Shown: one piece after another, positions 3,762 to 16,477 of the stretch
How positions within the stretch are numbered: the stretch's first letter is position 1
How the letters are laid out: each line of letters starts with the position of its first letter
Virus record (IMG/VR): IMGVR_UViG_3300043639_000125
Coordinates: 1 to 20,785 of that record
Source: a virus
DNA length: 20,785 nucleotides
Direction: 5' to 3' (one strand)
The notes under the pieces: generated by a model
Told to the model about the DNA's origin: nothing
The model's input: only the letters and a program-made list of their open reading frames with translations
The model's database searches: none
Position numbers and translations under genes: made by a program

Positions 3762-4618
3762 CAGCGCGGTCCTCCTGGATGCAGAGATAAGAGATAGCGC
3801 GACGCGATGGCGTTCAGGTCTTCGAGTGCCTTCCGCTCCTCGGGGCCGTAAGGGTTGGTCCCTCGGGCCTGAGGGTCGTCTTTACTTCGACCGAACAACC
3901 AGAGCGCGCGGGCGCGCTCGAAATCAGCCGCTGGCCCGCGTCCGCGCTCGGGATCACCCATCGCCGACGCCATGATGTAGCGGGTGACGTATTCTTCGTC
4001 TTTTGGCAGTTTCGCCCAGAGTTCCGGCGGCACGACATTGGCCCGGCGCAGCTTCTCCAGGCCGCGATGGACTGATTCATGGACGAGATTGGAAGGGTAG
4101 GCGGCATTCGAGTATATGCTGTCGGTTTTGGGTGAATAAGAGCCGACGACGGAAGCATCGGGACCGCTTTCGGTATCAAGGTTCGTATTACGCGGCTGAT
4201 AGCCGAGAGCCGCCACGGGTGAGCGATTGATGGCGAGTTGCGCCGCCTCGTAGGCGTCCGCCGTGGTGGGCGTGCCCTGGGAAGGCCGTCCGAAGCGAGG
4301 GTCGGCCACGACCGCCGGGGACAGGCCCTCGACGGGAATGCCAAGCAGATTGGCCGCCCGGCCGCTGGTGTAAGCCTCGTTACCGGAGCCGTAAGAGGCG
4401 TCGTTTTGGCGGGCATTGGCGATGTCGGAGGTGTCGGGATAACGCGCCATGGGCGGAGCCAGAGTGGTCTCCGTGGCGGGCGCGCCGCCGATGCCCAGCA
4501 GGCCCGCGATACTCGAAAGCCAGCCTCGGTTCCGCTCCTCGGTGTGATCGGTGACCGCCTGATACACCTGGCCGAGGGGGTTTGGCTGTTGCTCGGACAG
4601 ATCAAGCAGAGAGGCCAT
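3761..4618 (-). CDS. HExxH metallopeptidase-like protein in the head operon (285 aa)
   Basis: The product carries HESVH at residues 180-184 inside a helix-like stretch (SNLVHESVHRGLEKLRR), the zinc-binding and catalytic signature of zincin metallopeptidases. An acidic EEYVTRY segment at 208-214 is 24 or more residues downstream, where gluzincins place their third zinc ligand (Glu). Residues 1-60 are a hydrophobic, Gly/Pro-rich leader beginning MASLL; residues 60-175 are polar and probably linker. GGAG lies six to seven bases before the ATG. It may be a head-packaged peptidase, a maturation protease acting on scaffold or capsid, or an ejected protein that cleaves host wall or envelope peptides. 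A five-residue motif can occur by chance, so the enzymatic call is tentative, but the local helix pattern and downstream Glu raise it above noise. Confidence 0.6.
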   Translation of the reverse strand: MASLLDLSEQQPNPLGQVYQAVTDHTEERNRGWLSSIAGLLGIGGAPATETTLAPPMARYPDTSDIANARQNDASYGSGNEAYTSGRAANLLGIPVEGLSPAVVADPRFGRPSQGTPTTADAYEAAQLAINRSPVAALGYQPRNTNLDTESGPDASVVGSYSPKTDSIYSNAAYPSNLVHESVHRGLEKLRRANVVPPELWAKLPKDEEYVTRYIMASAMGDPERGRGPAADFERARALWLFGRSKDDPQARGTNPYGPEERKALEDLNAIASRYLLSLHPGGPR

Positions 4619-8189: not shown

Positions 8190-8419
8190 GATGCCTTCTC
8201 CAGGGCGCGTTTCACCTGACTGTCCTTCATGCCTTCCACGGGACGAAGAATCCTGATCTCGGGACGTAACTCTTCCAGTCGCGTATCAACCGCCCGCCGC
8301 AGGCCGAGAAGCGCCTCTTTCATGACGCTCAGATCACGGTTGAGCGCGTTCACCAGCCGCCGCTGGGCCGCCAGGGCTTCTTTCAGTCTTCTGATCTCGG
8401 CCATTGGGTCATCCATCAT
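8186..8419 (-). CDS. Small coiled-coil protein between terminase and portal (77 aa)
   Basis: The start is taken at the first of two adjacent Met codons (8417-8419) because it gives the operon's usual ATGA overlap with the terminase stop. The product is a continuous charged helix with heptad-like Leu spacing (MAEIRRLKEALAAQRRLVNA, then LSVMKEALLGLRRAVDTRL), followed by EIRILRPVEGMKD and a short helix. It is probably an oligomeric coiled coil. It may help terminase-portal docking or be a minor virion component. No family is recognised. Confidence 0.68.
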   Translation of the reverse strand: MMDDPMAEIRRLKEALAAQRRLVNALNRDLSVMKEALLGLRRAVDTRLEELRPEIRILRPVEGMKDSQVKRALEKAS

Positions 8420-9834
8420 ACCAGATCTCCATCGGTGAGGCTCATGTGCATGGGGGCTTTGTCGAACAGGCCGGAGGTCAGGCCGCTGACGACGCCGAGA
8501 CCGGCGGAGGCGAAGGTATGAATGAGCGCATCCGCCGCGTCGGGCGAGGAAAACCCGCGCGAACGCATCGATTGCTTGGTCTCCACGAGGAGGCGGCCAT
8601 CGGAGAGGTAGGTATAGCGCGGCGCCACGAGTTCATCGCGCAGTTCTTCATCCCTCGGCAGACGGACGGCACGGGAGGCCAGCCACTCGCGCGTCCGATC
8701 CCACAGCTCGTCGCGCAGCCGCCGGTGCTGGTTCGTGGTGGAGGGATTCTCAGCGACGTTGACGCCGAGGACCGGCAGGCCCTGCTCGGTCAGACGATCG
8801 ACGACGCCCGCTCCAATTCCAATAACATCGACAACAATAAGGAACGGTTTGGCGTTGAGAGAGCGGTCCCACTCCGCCTTTATCGCACCCGAGAGTCGCA
8901 TCGTATCGAACTGACGCCACCGACGCGGCATGTCGGGGACGACATTTCCCTGCCGTTTTATGAGCACCGACGAGTCGGAGCCGAATCGGGCGACATCGAC
9001 GCCCCAGATAATGGGCGCTGTCGGGTCGAGCGGGACGTCCCTGATCATGGCGCTATCGACCAGCTCGGCTCCGATAAGGGTATCGTCATCGGCGAGCGGG
9101 AACTCGCCGAGAACCCTGATCCGGAAGCGGTTGCTGCTCTCGCCGTAGCGTTTCTTGATCTCCTCGACGAAGTCGGGCGTCACCCGTTTTGAATCGAGGG
9201 ACGAGACCTTCATCGTGAACCAACGGTCGCGCTCCAGGGTGTGGACGCGCCAGAAGAACCCGGATGATCGTGTCGGATTGCCAATGAGTAATGTTACGGC
9301 ACCGAAACTACTCATGCTGCCGGAAGCGGCCTCGAAAACCGCTTCGTGAATGCCGCTGGCCTCGTCGGCCACGAGAAGGATGTGAGCACTGTGCAGGCCG
9401 GCCATCGCCTCCGGCGTATCGGGTCTCGAGGTTCTTGCTGTCACGAAACATTCCTGATCGGCTTTAAGAGTAACGCGATCAGAACGAATATCCCACAGAT
9501 CCCGCCAGCCGGAAGGGAGAATGTTCAGCCATTTCACGAACTCAGGCCACAGCGCGTCAAACAACTGCGGTGAGGACGGCGCGGTTATGGCGACCTTGAA
9601 CGGCGCGCGGGTGCAGATGAACCATACGCACAGCCACGCCGCGAAAGCAGTCTTACCGACGCCATGCCCTGAACGAATAGCCAGACGGGTATGCCCGCGC
9701 GCCACCGCGCGGAGTGCCTCCAGCTGCCATGGGTCGGGCTCAACCCCAAGAATATCCCGCACGAACGCGATCGGCGCGCGGGCATACTTTTCAATCGCCG
9801 CGTGGAACGGGTTGGTTTGAAGTGTGGAACTCAT
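8416..9834 (-). CDS. terL: Terminase large subunit
   Basis: This is the packaging motor: an N-terminal ATPase drives DNA into the prohead and a C-terminal RNase H-like nuclease cuts the concatemer. Residues 55-62 (SGHGVGKT) are the Walker A motif and 153-160 (LLVADEAS) the Walker B motif with its catalytic acid, followed by the coupling segment IGNPTR at 184-189. The nuclease acids are at WGVDVARFG (Asp280), LIVVDVIGIG (Asp336) and SPDAADAL (Asp432, Asp435). The 472-residue length is complete for the family. The start overlaps the upstream coiled-coil gene as ATGA. All motor and nuclease residues are present, so it should be active. Confidence 0.95.
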   Translation of the reverse strand: MSSTLQTNPFHAAIEKYARAPIAFVRDILGVEPDPWQLEALRAVARGHTRLAIRSGHGVGKTAFAAWLCVWFICTRAPFKVAITAPSSPQLFDALWPEFVKWLNILPSGWRDLWDIRSDRVTLKADQECFVTARTSRPDTPEAMAGLHSAHILLVADEASGIHEAVFEAASGSMSSFGAVTLLIGNPTRSSGFFWRVHTLERDRWFTMKVSSLDSKRVTPDFVEEIKKRYGESSNRFRIRVLGEFPLADDDTLIGAELVDSAMIRDVPLDPTAPIIWGVDVARFGSDSSVLIKRQGNVVPDMPRRWRQFDTMRLSGAIKAEWDRSLNAKPFLIVVDVIGIGAGVVDRLTEQGLPVLGVNVAENPSTTNQHRRLRDELWDRTREWLASRAVRLPRDEELRDELVAPRYTYLSDGRLLVETKQSMRSRGFSSPDAADALIHTFASAGLGVVSGLTSGLFDKAPMHMSLTDGDLV

Positions 9835-12928: not shown

Positions 12929-12950
12929 AAAGGCCCCGCGAGGGGCCTTT
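12929..12950. terminator. Bidirectional hairpin terminator between convergent operons
   Basis: AAAGGCCCC (12929-12937), loop GCGA, GGGGCCTTT (12942-12950) make a perfect 9-bp stem. On the minus strand the stem is followed by TGCTTTTGG, giving a fair U-tract; on the plus strand it is followed by ACTGTTTC. It ends the plus early operon and the minus replication operon; the RuvC stop codon lies inside it. Confidence 0.85.
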
Positions 12951-13389
12951 ACTGTTTCTGGACGATGTTCCGCCAGCCATACCACGCCAGCAGCACGGCA
13001 TCGGCTTCGTCATGCGTCAGGGGTCGATCAGGCTCCCGCAGAATCTCCCTGGCCATGGCGACGCCCGCCGCCTTGCCCGCCGCGCCTCCCCCGAGGCCAT
13101 ACGCGCCCCGCCACACCGCCGGCTGGACATATTCCACCCTCAACCCCGGCCTCGGCGCCAGCAGCCCCCTGACGATCCCGTATGCCTGCCCCAGGGCGAA
13201 AGCGGACCTTACGCCTTGTTGAGGGGAGGAATGTTGGGCTTCGACCACCGCCAGTTGGGCCACCGCCAGCGGTACCAACAGGTGAAAATCGATTGGCCCG
13301 ATGTGGCATCCGGCGATAACGCCAGCCTCCACCCGGATAAACGCCCCCGCCCCGCTGCCGCCGGGATCGATGCCAAGAATGAAGGTCAT
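12949..13389 (-). CDS. RuvC-like Holliday junction resolvase (146 aa)
   Basis: This RNase H-fold nuclease is expected to cut branched DNA during replication, recombination or packaging. The first strand carries FILGIDPGGSGAG (Asp8), the second VVEAQHSSPQQG (Glu50), and the last helix HDEADAVLLAWYG (Asp127, Asp130), the four acids expected of RuvC-type enzymes. The 146-residue length is slightly short of bacterial RuvC but normal for phage versions. AAAGGTAGAAT precedes the ATG. It is the last gene of the minus replication operon, separated from the PrimPol gene by a 143-bp stretch containing a perfect inverted repeat. Phage resolvases of this type usually clear Y- and X-junctions before packaging. 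Confidence 0.88.
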   Translation of the reverse strand: MTFILGIDPGGSGAGAFIRVEAGVIAGCHIGPIDFHLLVPLAVAQLAVVEAQHSSPQQGVRSAFALGQAYGIVRGLLAPRPGLRVEYVQPAVWRGAYGLGGGAAGKAAGVAMAREILREPDRPLTHDEADAVLLAWYGWRNIVQKQ

Positions 13390-13408
13390 ATTCTACCTTT
13401 AATCAATT

Positions 13409-13521
13409 TACGGGGACTTCGGGGACATACGGGGACTTCCTTATACCCCCATGGGAGAAACGCAAGGTGTTTTACGGTAAATGGATGACAGAACCCCCCG
13501 TGAGTCCCCGAAGTCCCCGTA
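13409..13521. repeat. Perfect 18-bp inverted repeat flanking a 77-bp spacer
   Basis: TACGGGGACTTCGGGGAC (13409-13426) is exactly complementary to 13504-13521. Similarity continues inward, with CGGGG and TTC blocks, to about 31 bp per arm with four differences. Each arm is itself built from three CGGGGAC units. The spacer also contains TTTAC-G-GTAAA. The repeat fills the gap between the PrimPol and RuvC genes. Confidence 0.95.
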
Positions 13522-13532
13522 GATAACTTTTA

Positions 13533-16157
13533 TCAAAATGTCATGGTAAGACTCCACGTCATTATTTTACGTCCTGAGTCCATGCCCCCCGTGAATCGGC
13601 GCCCATCGGAGATTCCCCCCGCGTGATGCCGTAGCCAGTGCCCGAGCTCTTGCGGCGTTATTTTCGCACCATTCTTGCTGATGCTGGCGAGGGCTTCTCC
13701 GAGTGCGACGCGCGCGGCGACGCGTGCTTTATCCCTTGCCTCCCTGGCCTTTTTAGCCGCCGGGGTTTCATTGTTTGGGCTGCTTTCGAACTCCCGTGAC
13801 GGATTTTGCGCCATCTCAATGACTTCAGTAGCGGTCTTCGCCGTGCCCAGGCCCACCGCCGCCTCCCATGCCGCCATGACGCTCCGCAGGAGCGCCAGCG
13901 CCGGATCGGCGGCGTGTAGTTTCTCCATGGTATCAGCCGGGTCGGTTTGTCCGAGCCATATCAGCGGCGCCCGCGTGAAGCGGGTATAATCCTCGAACGA
14001 TCCCAGCGGGGATATCTCCGCCTTCCCACCGCTGGCCATATACCCTCTGACGATCGTCAGCACCGCCGCGAGATACCGGCCGCGATCTTTCAATACCCGT
14101 TGGAATGGGTTCCCTTTGAACTCTTTCTTTTCCGGCCGCTCCATCTCCGCGTCCATCGACGCCATGACGACGCGGCGCGTGACATCTTCGACCACGACCA
14201 TGTTGTTGCCGGTCACGCCGGCCAGTGCGCTGTTGGGTGTCCGGTGCATGTCCGAGCGCCCCAGGCGCCGCAGGTCCAGCAGCGGTTGCGTGGCGATCTG
14301 GCAAATAAGATCTCCTTCCAGCGGCACGCTGAGATTGTCGATACTGAACAGCGTCGCGCCTTGCAGCAGCAGTCCGTTCAGTTTCTTTTCCATCTCCTCC
14401 CGCGAGCCTCCGGCGTAGATGACCGGGCAGCGGCTGCCGTAAACGATGGCGGCGGCGATATCGTAGAGGAACGATTTCCCCGTCCCGCGCCTGGGCGCCG
14501 TGGCCGCGTGTATGGGCGCCACGTCCATGGCCGCTCTGACAACGGCGGTGATGAACAGCGACAACGCCACCGAGTGCGAGGCCCCGCCGTCCTCGATGAA
14601 CGGGAACTCTTCCAGCAGCCCTTCCAGCACCGCGAGCGCGGCCACGCATTCCCCTCGCGAGGGCGCGTCGCTGATCGACGGCATGTTCAGGCCGGGTGGC
14701 AACGCCAGGTAATATCCGCTGGCTTTGTCGTATCCGCTTTGGTCGATCAGCGTCCCATCACGGCGGATCGTCGGGTGCGCGATGATGCCGCGCAGATAGG
14801 GCGCATTCCATTCTCCGGCCCGCCCCAACAGGATATTGGCGACGGCTTCCGGCGGGTCCGCCTTAACGTCTTTCTTCAGTTGCCGGCTGTATTTCATCCA
14901 TTCCCCGGTCTGGCAGAACAGATCCAGCATTCCGGCGGTATCGATCCGGTGCAGGCCGGTCACCTGGGTTTTCCCCTGGTCCGCCGCGTCCATCTCGATG
15001 ACGGCGGGGCGCACCAGCATCGACCGTTGGAACACCGGCTTTCCACTGGCGATGATGGCCGCCTCTCCTTCACTGGCCAGGTGGTGCAATTCGCCGGCGA
15101 TGATCTTGATGCGGCGGCGGGTCACACCCTCGCCGCTACCACCAAAAGGCCGCCGCGATGGCCTGACCCATCCTGGCTCCGCCTTTTCCGCTTCCAGCAT
15201 CAGGTATCCGATACCGATACGATCAGGCGGCGAGCGCATCCAGTGATCCCACCGTTCGCGGCAGGCCGCGTCGTCGTGCTTCCCCGACTTCTCCGACCAC
15301 GCGCGGAACGCCTCGTATCCGTCCTCGCTCCCGCCCGTCGCGCCCCGCACGGCCATCCCGGTCTTCGACCAGTCATCCCACCCGAGGTCATCGTTCGCGA
15401 TCTTGCCCAGCGCCGCCACCACGTCTTCGATATGCCCGCGCAGGGAGAGCCCATCATCGTCCGCCCGCTCCGCCTTTCCCTCGATCGTCTTCCCTTTCTC
15501 CGCTCGCTCCATCAGCCATTCCACCACGGGCGTTATATCGACCGTGCAATCCCCGGCCGGATTCCATCCCGTGACCGTCAAAAAGCGGGCGCAGGCGTGG
15601 AATATCTCGATCTGGGCGCGGGCCTTGATCCCCTCACCCCACCACGCTCGTTCCTCGGCGCTGTCAGAGCCCTCCAGCCCATCCACCCATGCCTTCACCC
15701 GCAGCCGCCCCTGGAACGCCCCTGGAGGCCCTCCCAGGCGTCCGATGATCCGTATCCCCGTCCCCGAGGGCGTCACCTCCCAATAGGCTCCTGGCGCGGC
15801 GGCGAGGATCGCCAGCGCCCATCCGTCGATCTTCCCCGTCCGAGGGTCGCGACAGTGATCGATATCGATGGCCACGCGCCCGAAATCGTCTTTCATGCGC
15901 CAGCCGACGCCGGCGGCGTCTTCGGCCAGCACCGCCGCTGACGCCACGTCGTAGCCAACCACCCCTTCCAGATCGTTGACCCGGACGTTCCGTCCCGTTC
16001 CGGGGATGACGGGAACCTTGGTCTTGCCCTTCGTCCCGTCCTTTCGGATCAGCACTCGCCAGTACCAGATGCACCACCGATCAACGGCGAGCATCGCCGC
16101 GAGGCCGGGTATGTCCCTGAGATTCAGTCCCCGTGTTTTGTCCTTGTCGCCGGCCAT
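13533..16157 (-). CDS. PrimPol-helicase fusion replication protein (874 aa)
   Basis: This is a two-part replication enzyme. Residues ~25-215 are an archaeo-eukaryotic primase-like domain: VAIDIDHC holds the metal-binding Asp98-x-Asp100 pair, and TPSGTGIRIIG (129-139) is the nucleotide-binding segment, with Arg where many relatives have His. Residues ~240-325 resemble a PriCT_2 linker domain (WDDWSKTGMAVRGATGG). Residues ~500-720 are a superfamily 3-like helicase: Walker A PRRGTGKS (555-562), Walker B LFSIDN (603-608), a GNNMVV sensor (650-655), and RR at 661-662 as likely arginine finger. The product would both prime and unwind DNA. GAGGGG precedes the start. Upstream is a Cro/C1-like gene, downstream the inverted repeat and RuvC. 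Confidence 0.85.
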   Translation of the reverse strand: MAGDKDKTRGLNLRDIPGLAAMLAVDRWCIWYWRVLIRKDGTKGKTKVPVIPGTGRNVRVNDLEGVVGYDVASAAVLAEDAAGVGWRMKDDFGRVAIDIDHCRDPRTGKIDGWALAILAAAPGAYWEVTPSGTGIRIIGRLGGPPGAFQGRLRVKAWVDGLEGSDSAEERAWWGEGIKARAQIEIFHACARFLTVTGWNPAGDCTVDITPVVEWLMERAEKGKTIEGKAERADDDGLSLRGHIEDVVAALGKIANDDLGWDDWSKTGMAVRGATGGSEDGYEAFRAWSEKSGKHDDAACRERWDHWMRSPPDRIGIGYLMLEAEKAEPGWVRPSRRPFGGSGEGVTRRRIKIIAGELHHLASEGEAAIIASGKPVFQRSMLVRPAVIEMDAADQGKTQVTGLHRIDTAGMLDLFCQTGEWMKYSRQLKKDVKADPPEAVANILLGRAGEWNAPYLRGIIAHPTIRRDGTLIDQSGYDKASGYYLALPPGLNMPSISDAPSRGECVAALAVLEGLLEEFPFIEDGGASHSVALSLFITAVVRAAMDVAPIHAATAPRRGTGKSFLYDIAAAIVYGSRCPVIYAGGSREEMEKKLNGLLLQGATLFSIDNLSVPLEGDLICQIATQPLLDLRRLGRSDMHRTPNSALAGVTGNNMVVVEDVTRRVVMASMDAEMERPEKKEFKGNPFQRVLKDRGRYLAAVLTIVRGYMASGGKAEISPLGSFEDYTRFTRAPLIWLGQTDPADTMEKLHAADPALALLRSVMAAWEAAVGLGTAKTATEVIEMAQNPSREFESSPNNETPAAKKAREARDKARVAARVALGEALASISKNGAKITPQELGHWLRHHAGGISDGRRFTGGMDSGRKIMTWSLTMTF

Positions 16158-16192: not shown

Positions 16193-16477
16193 TCACCCCC
16201 ACTCGGCCCATTCGTCCGCCTCCGCCGACGGCCGATGTCCGATCTTCACCCGCACCGGCGGCGGCCCCGCCGCCGCCACCGCGCCCGCGAGCCCCTCGAT
16301 CCACGTCATGACAGCGTCCGGGACCGGATAGAGCCCTTCCCGCCACCTCCGGGCGGTGCTGACGCCGATGCCGAGCACCTCGGCCAGATCACCCGAGGTC
16401 CACCGCAACGCCGTCAGCGCCGCCCCCAGGCGGCGGGAACGGTCATCTTCGACAATCCCCCGCATCGTCTCGCTCAT
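16193..16477 (-). CDS. Helix-turn-helix regulator, Cro/C1-like (94 aa)
   Basis: Residues ~18-64 contain a HTH: LTALRWTSGDLAEVLGIGVS supplies the first helices and turn, and TARRWREG the recognition helix, followed by PVPDAVMTWIEGLA as a packing helix. This resembles phage Cro/C1-type regulators. The C-terminal 25 residues are Pro-rich and acidic, ending EWAEWG. It starts at an ATGA overlap and ends 35 bases before the PrimPol gene. It may control the operon it sits in or act with the 18-bp promoter-linked element at P2 and P3; this is inference. Confidence 0.75.
   Translation of the reverse strand: MSETMRGIVEDDRSRRLGAALTALRWTSGDLAEVLGIGVSTARRWREGLYPVPDAVMTWIEGLAGAVAAAGPPPVRVKIGHRPSAEADEWAEWG

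Follow-up and report, generated by a model that had tools for sequence, protein, structure and literature searches.

Two neighboring genes on the minus strand of the window, the complete 20,785-bp stretch of viral DNA analyzed here (a linear fragment), encode a PrimPol-helicase and a RuvC-like resolvase, and the 143-bp gap between their ORFs (13390-13532) holds a long inverted repeat. The features of the locus are as follows.

12949..13389, minus strand: RuvC-like Holliday junction resolvase gene, downstream neighbor of the PrimPol gene (PHROG 1770, E=1.2e-13; Pfam RuvC just below cut-off)
13406..13439, no strand: left arm (plus-strand view), with CGGGGAC units, the candidate iterons, at 13411, 13420 and 13430; perfect core 13409-13426
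13440..13490, no strand: central spacer, G+C about 46% vs. 61%; proposed melting/loading region
13491..13524, no strand: right arm (plus-strand view), with GTCCCCG at 13504 and 13513 and the variant CCCCCCG at 13494; perfect core 13504-13521
13533..16157, minus strand: PrimPol-helicase gene, 874 aa, NrS-1-polymerase-like in both halves, with a PriCT_2 Pfam match; proposed initiator
13536..13763, minus strand: codons of the C-terminal helices and beta-hairpin (residues ~799-874), winged-helix-like in an AlphaFold2 model (pLDDT 68-88)
13788..14750, minus strand: codons of the helicase domain (residues ~470-790), with Foldseek matches to NrS-1 CTR, SaPI PriRep1, ASFV PrimPol and pox D5/E5

Just upstream of the PrimPol gene lies a gene for a small HTH protein (16193-16477, minus strand) with a weak phage repressor match (PHROG 2328).

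At the core of the element, two exactly complementary 18-bp arms built of CGGGGAC units, TACGGGGACTTCGGGGAC (13409-13426) and GTCCCCGAAGTCCCCGTA (13504-13521), enclose 77 bp, as the preliminary description had reported. The imperfect extension that it had put at about 31 bp is present as well, but measures 34 nt when mismatches are allowed (13406-13439 / 13491-13524, 85% complementary, 51 nt between). The arms are made of tandem short direct repeats: CGGGGAC occurs five times, plus one variant, with a spacing of 9 and 10 bp within each arm. Read from the outside inward, the plus-strand arm is TA CGGGGACTT CGGGGACATA CGGGGACTTC, and the arm on the other strand is CTA CGGGGACTT CGGGGACTCA CGGGGGGTTC. 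With a score of 18, the element is the top-scoring long-loop inverted repeat of the window, compared with best scores of 14 among 30 dinucleotide shuffles of the entire window and 10 among 300 shuffles of the 143-bp gap. Thus, the element is not a product of chance. A second long-loop inverted repeat, GTATGCCCGCGCGCC (9689-9703 / 9773-9787, 15 bp perfect, 69 nt apart), lies near the start of a terminase-like ORF (8416-9834, minus strand).

Within the record, CGGGGACTTC is confined to the element. In the viral contigs searched, the TACGGGGACTTCGGGGAC pattern recurs in a near-identical contig (L001/L004); further matches in two other contigs (L002 and L003) fall inside long ORFs, lack an inverted repeat, and were set aside as coincidence. 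An Rfam search of the element returned no family. A mobile element of the REP or MITE kind was rejected because the sequence at this site differs in each relative and has no further copies.

For the N-terminal part of the PrimPol-helicase, hmmsearch gave matches to structures of the NrS-1 primase (E about 2e-6); the entry 6a9w, labeled just ‘Primase’ in the match table, is NrS-1. A model of the full-length protein was poor (pLDDT 49.7) and gave no significant fold match, so the C-terminal half alone was used, which AlphaFold2 modeled at pLDDT 75.5. The best Foldseek match of this half was the NrS-1 C-terminal region (E 4e-7, probability 1.00), followed by SaPI PriRep1 with dsDNA, ASFV PrimPol, the SaPI5 primase-helicase, and pox D5/E5; whole-length TM-scores of these fold matches were modest, at about 0.4. 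The model predicts two helices and a beta hairpin at the end of the protein, as in a winged helix. The replication protein combines an AEP primase, an SF3-like helicase and, as predicted by the model, a C-terminal winged helix. Among close relatives, one N-terminal PrimPol type (about 60–83% identity) is fused to at least three C-terminal halves, as seen when window positions 13536-16157 are compared with L009, L010, L012, L026, and L099. The spacer type of the putative origin switches along with the C-terminal half.

Close relatives of the PrimPol were collected from viral contigs, and in 14 of the 17 an inverted repeat of this kind lies no more than 300 bp past the PrimPol stop codon, at a density of 2.70/kb in that interval vs. 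0.042/kb elsewhere in the same DNA. Relatives that share the helicase only have a repeat in 14 of 33 cases (1.39/kb vs. 0.007/kb elsewhere), and 103 further loci have one in 65 of the 76 that are viral and 16 of the 27 that come from bacterial genomes; no bacterial-genome relatives of the window PrimPol itself were found. Every close relative with a window-type or D5-type C-terminal half, and with DNA past the stop codon, has a long inverted repeat there, and L026 and L099, close relatives whose C-terminus is of a third type, have inverted repeats of at most 10 bp. L028 (44% identity, N-terminal part only) has no inverted repeat after PrimPol, and a clear element was not found in L099, L028, L031, L109, L139, or L145. 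The preliminary description had counted a lack of conserved symmetry in relatives as evidence against its reading; the symmetry is in fact retained in most.

In a typical relative, the arms consist of two or three direct repeats of ~9–10 bp, inverted around a 40–80-bp spacer. Arm sequences differ from one relative to another, as in GCGGGTATGCGGGTAT (L006), GCGGGTGTTGCG (L007), CGGGGACTTCGGGGGGTT (L013), CCAGGGCAGGGTAGGGC (L009), GGGCAGGGAAGGGCGGGTCA (L010), and GTGCCACTCGGTGGCTGCTCA (L012), and arm 12-mers have no other copies in seven long relatives. In L154, a more distant relative (33% identity), the PrimPol gene runs with its final codons into the left arm. Named phages with the element are Acidithiobacillus AcaML1 and Mycobacterium LindNT and Milly, and, more weakly, Listeria PSA. 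In Milly (L140), the annotated hypothetical gene 73 (3970-4434) overlaps the origin-like element (4201-4328), and may be a false gene call.

These comparisons bear on two roles that the preliminary description had offered for the element. A resolvase gene often comes next (in the window, L010, AcaML1, and Listeria phage PSA), as might be expected if the arms formed a cruciform substrate of the neighboring RuvC-like resolvase. However, L009, L012, and L013 have a different next gene while the element is unchanged in kind, and the element goes with the PrimPol gene, as its arm sequence goes with the PrimPol C-terminus; we regard a resolvase substrate as highly improbable.

The second role was an RNA hairpin limiting RuvC expression, or more broadly a terminator, attenuator, or RNase III processing site between the PrimPol and RuvC mRNA. 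The element does lie between two co-directional genes, with a single weak terminator-like match per strand near the arms, but mismatched arm positions are not enriched in G-U (9 G-U, 11 A-C, and 24 other), and pairing is therefore not obviously selected in RNA. Loops of 40–80 nt with no U-tract past the element are poorly suited to this role, and in the window the loop of 51–77 nt, with AAATTGATTAAAG next on the gene strand, does not fit an intrinsic terminator. The overlap of the L154 left arm with the coding end of its gene, and the tracking of arm sequence with a DNA-binding domain (see below), also argue against it, as does the plasmid pRN1, in which a separate terminator is dispensable but the stem-loop is not (PMC4234260). 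An RNA hairpin is thus very unlikely.

The internal repeats of the arms have a defined period. Self-similarity in 29 non-redundant arms peaks at lags of 9 bp (z = 10.9) and 10 bp (z = 8.2), and at no other lag; judged by their sequence, the arms are an iteron array. Four relatives (L100, L101, L102, and L104) have additional iterons outside the paired arms. At the same time, the match from arm to arm far exceeds the match from unit to unit within an arm. Two base pairs have changed in both arms together between the window and L013, and pairwise counts in the AcaML1-like set, which are not independent, give 318 changes that both arms retain vs. 79 that are broken. Among relatives, structure is kept and sequence is changed.

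Arms that remain complementary although their sequence has wholly changed between relatives, the 318 kept against 79 broken changes, and the compensatory rescue in pRN1 (PMC4234260) all favor an origin that is read mainly by shape, in which the initiator loads on the hairpin of a cruciform extruded from the arms, and the 9-bp repeats are incidental. Yet neither a 9–10 bp arm period nor a coupling to the winged helix is expected of a shape-only site, and the iterons beyond the paired arms also speak against it. We consider such an origin unlikely.

We compared arm similarity with protein identity domain by domain. In 57 non-redundant D5-type proteins, arm similarity correlated with winged-helix identity at rho 0.58 vs. 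0.35 for the helicase, and the partial correlations were 0.50 for the winged helix and 0.08 for the helicase. The winged-helix value of 0.50 was reached by 0 of 500 permutations, and the coupling held in every stratum of helicase identity. In an earlier set of 24 D5-type relatives, arm similarity tracked identity only in the last two segments of the protein, which correspond to the winged helix; in variants of this test, subsets were weaker and the peak was broader. The segment just upstream of the winged helix showed about background correlation only. The winged-helix codons adjoin the element, and joint transfer may therefore add to the correlation. These data come from D5-type helicases, the helicase type of the window having only about six distinct relatives, and we infer that the coupling extends to the latter.

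Operators are also typically inverted arrays of short repeats, and this usual design would suit an operator, autoregulatory, or partition site for PrimPol or another regulator. The element, however, lies behind the PrimPol gene and not in front of it, no promoter-like site was found in 13200-13700, and neither does the unit recur elsewhere in the window nor do the arms in the seven long relatives, leaving such a site with a negligible likelihood.

The spacer is lower in G+C than its surroundings, by a modest margin (0.46 vs. 0.61 in the window locus; class mean 0.54 vs. 0.62). D5-type members have a CG-rich alternating purine-pyrimidine tract in mid-spacer (19 of 21 spacers), with a density of 17.1 per kb in D5-type spacers vs. 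0.16 elsewhere (~100x); this tract is absent from the window's own group. It is possibly a Z-DNA or supercoil-sensitive core. The CG/CA tracts are 12–32 nt long (e.g. L018, L088-L107, L114-L116, and L137), and similar alternating tracts occur in the loops of the plasmids pHEN7 and pSSVx. An inner hairpin in the spacer was dropped as a general feature, being present in some relatives only and not in the window, where the candidate AAAC/GTTT (13458-13472) is weak and not significant.

The closest parallel in layout is pRN1, in which a 100-bp stem-loop right after the PrimPol gene is required for replication, and the spacer is needed, according to two groups (PMC4234260, PMC3869888). This origin has a 21-bp stem and a 58-nt loop (PMC4234260, PMC3869888). 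The stem-loop functions when moved, and mutation of the stem is tolerated only with symmetry restored (PMC4234260), which favors a structural over a purely sequence-based reading at that position. In the loop, 3-bp deletions abolish function and substitutions are tolerated (PMC3869888), a pattern that could reflect a need for fixed spacing of two bound arrays. The authors of the pRN1 work did not see iterons, referred to ‘not yet identified sequence motifs’ as what the initiator recognizes (PMC4234260), and proposed the same kind of origin for Bordetella phage BIP-1; the perfect stem of BIP-1/BPP-1 is just 9 bp long and lends weak support. We read the stems of this family as two 9-bp repeats each, TGTCCATAG-TGTCCAACT in pRN1, GGACCGATA-GGACAGGAA in pRN2, and GTCACCACT-GTCACAACT in pHEN7. 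Across four stems of the pRN family, the only lag to stand out is 9 (z = 4.3), and pSSVx by itself shows no such period.

The pRN1 family and the window thus share an inverted repeat directly 3' of a gene for a PrimPol, SF3 helicase, and winged helix, and in both groups structure is kept as sequence diverges, with 9-bp direct repeats in the pRN stem. They are also comparable in size (21 bp and 58 nt in pRN1; 18-bp perfect or 34-bp imperfect arms and a 77- or 51-nt spacer in the window). The window arms, unlike those of pRN1, are G+C-rich with three units each. In addition, pRN1 is an archaeal (Sulfolobus) plasmid, whereas the window comes from a virus record.

Other systems share parts of this arrangement. 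The solved protein most closely related to that of the window, in both halves, is NrS-1 polymerase. This enzyme initiates DNA synthesis de novo, using an 8-nt site with two mid-genome copies, one on each strand (PMC7102993, PMC8718748). Its known site, TTTGGTTA, is a primase template motif, and no iteron arrays are described (PMC7102993, PMC8718748). Origins of SaPI and SCCmec resemble the window in that iterons lie directly downstream of the initiator helicase gene (rep/cch2), and these iterons are bound by the initiator's C-terminal domain (PMC7581432); the window protein has SaPI PriRep1 and the SaPI5 primase-helicase near the top of its fold matches. Deletion of the separate inverted repeats of SCCmec left Cch2 binding intact, and the direct repeats alone were important (PMC7581432); in the window, in contrast, the inverted arms themselves consist of the repeats. 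P4 alpha, like the window protein, unites primase, helicase, and a winged helix that binds the origin repeats, but its primase is of the Toprim type and the iterons of P4 ori do not form one large stem (per PMC4234260).

We think it likely that the element is the replication origin of this virus, consisting of inverted iteron arrays to which the PrimPol-helicase binds through its winged helix and in which pairing of the arms is maintained too. An origin recognized by the PrimPol-helicase had been among the roles first suggested, and comparative sequence evidence supports it well, because position and symmetry are conserved in relatives, arms and winged helix co-evolve in D5-type members, and the layout is shared with the proven pRN1 origin. 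In the mechanism that we infer, two arrays of 9–10-bp iterons (CGGGGACTT-type) would face each other across a ~50-bp spacer, just past the gene for the initiator that acts on them. This protein would bind the iterons with its C-terminal winged helix, and the bound arrays would place two helicase rings in opposite orientation. The rings would then open the spacer, and the PrimPol domain would prime and start DNA synthesis on the exposed strands. Complementarity of the arms is maintained to a degree that iteron binding alone would not demand; loading is therefore probably aided by a hairpin or cruciform intermediate.

GC skew, which the preliminary description had proposed as a check, did not mark the element as an origin: there is no cumulative minimum at the element in the window, where the peak lies near 9 kb, nor in the seven long relatives. 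In six of those seven (G001 and G003-G007), the cumulative GC-skew maximum lies 0.9–4.2 kb downstream of the element, and more likely reflects gene polarity.

On the best reading of these sequences, the window element would belong to the pRN1-type class of origins as a new member. New for this class, it seems, are the iterons in the stem, the winged helix as their reader, the rapid joint change of the two, and the alternating tract of the D5 branch; no paper stating this was found in the literature searched, which included few subscription papers. A broader proposal is that PrimPol/D5-helicase replicons ranging from archaeal plasmids to tailed phages share one origin code, in which inverted 9–10-bp iterons, changing fast together with their winged-helix reader, surround a structure-prone core. 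This core would be an alternating CG/CA tract in D5-type members and a different one in NrS-1-type members such as the window, and the pRN1 stem-loop would be a disguised iteron origin with its arms kept complementary. We would give this proposal as a whole an even chance.

The relatives offer one short candidate motif per phage together with a predicted reader domain, and the set includes the cultured phages AcaML1, LindNT, and Milly, which makes the motif testable. If the reading is true, origins could be located by sequence in many phages that are annotated only with a ‘DNA primase/helicase’.
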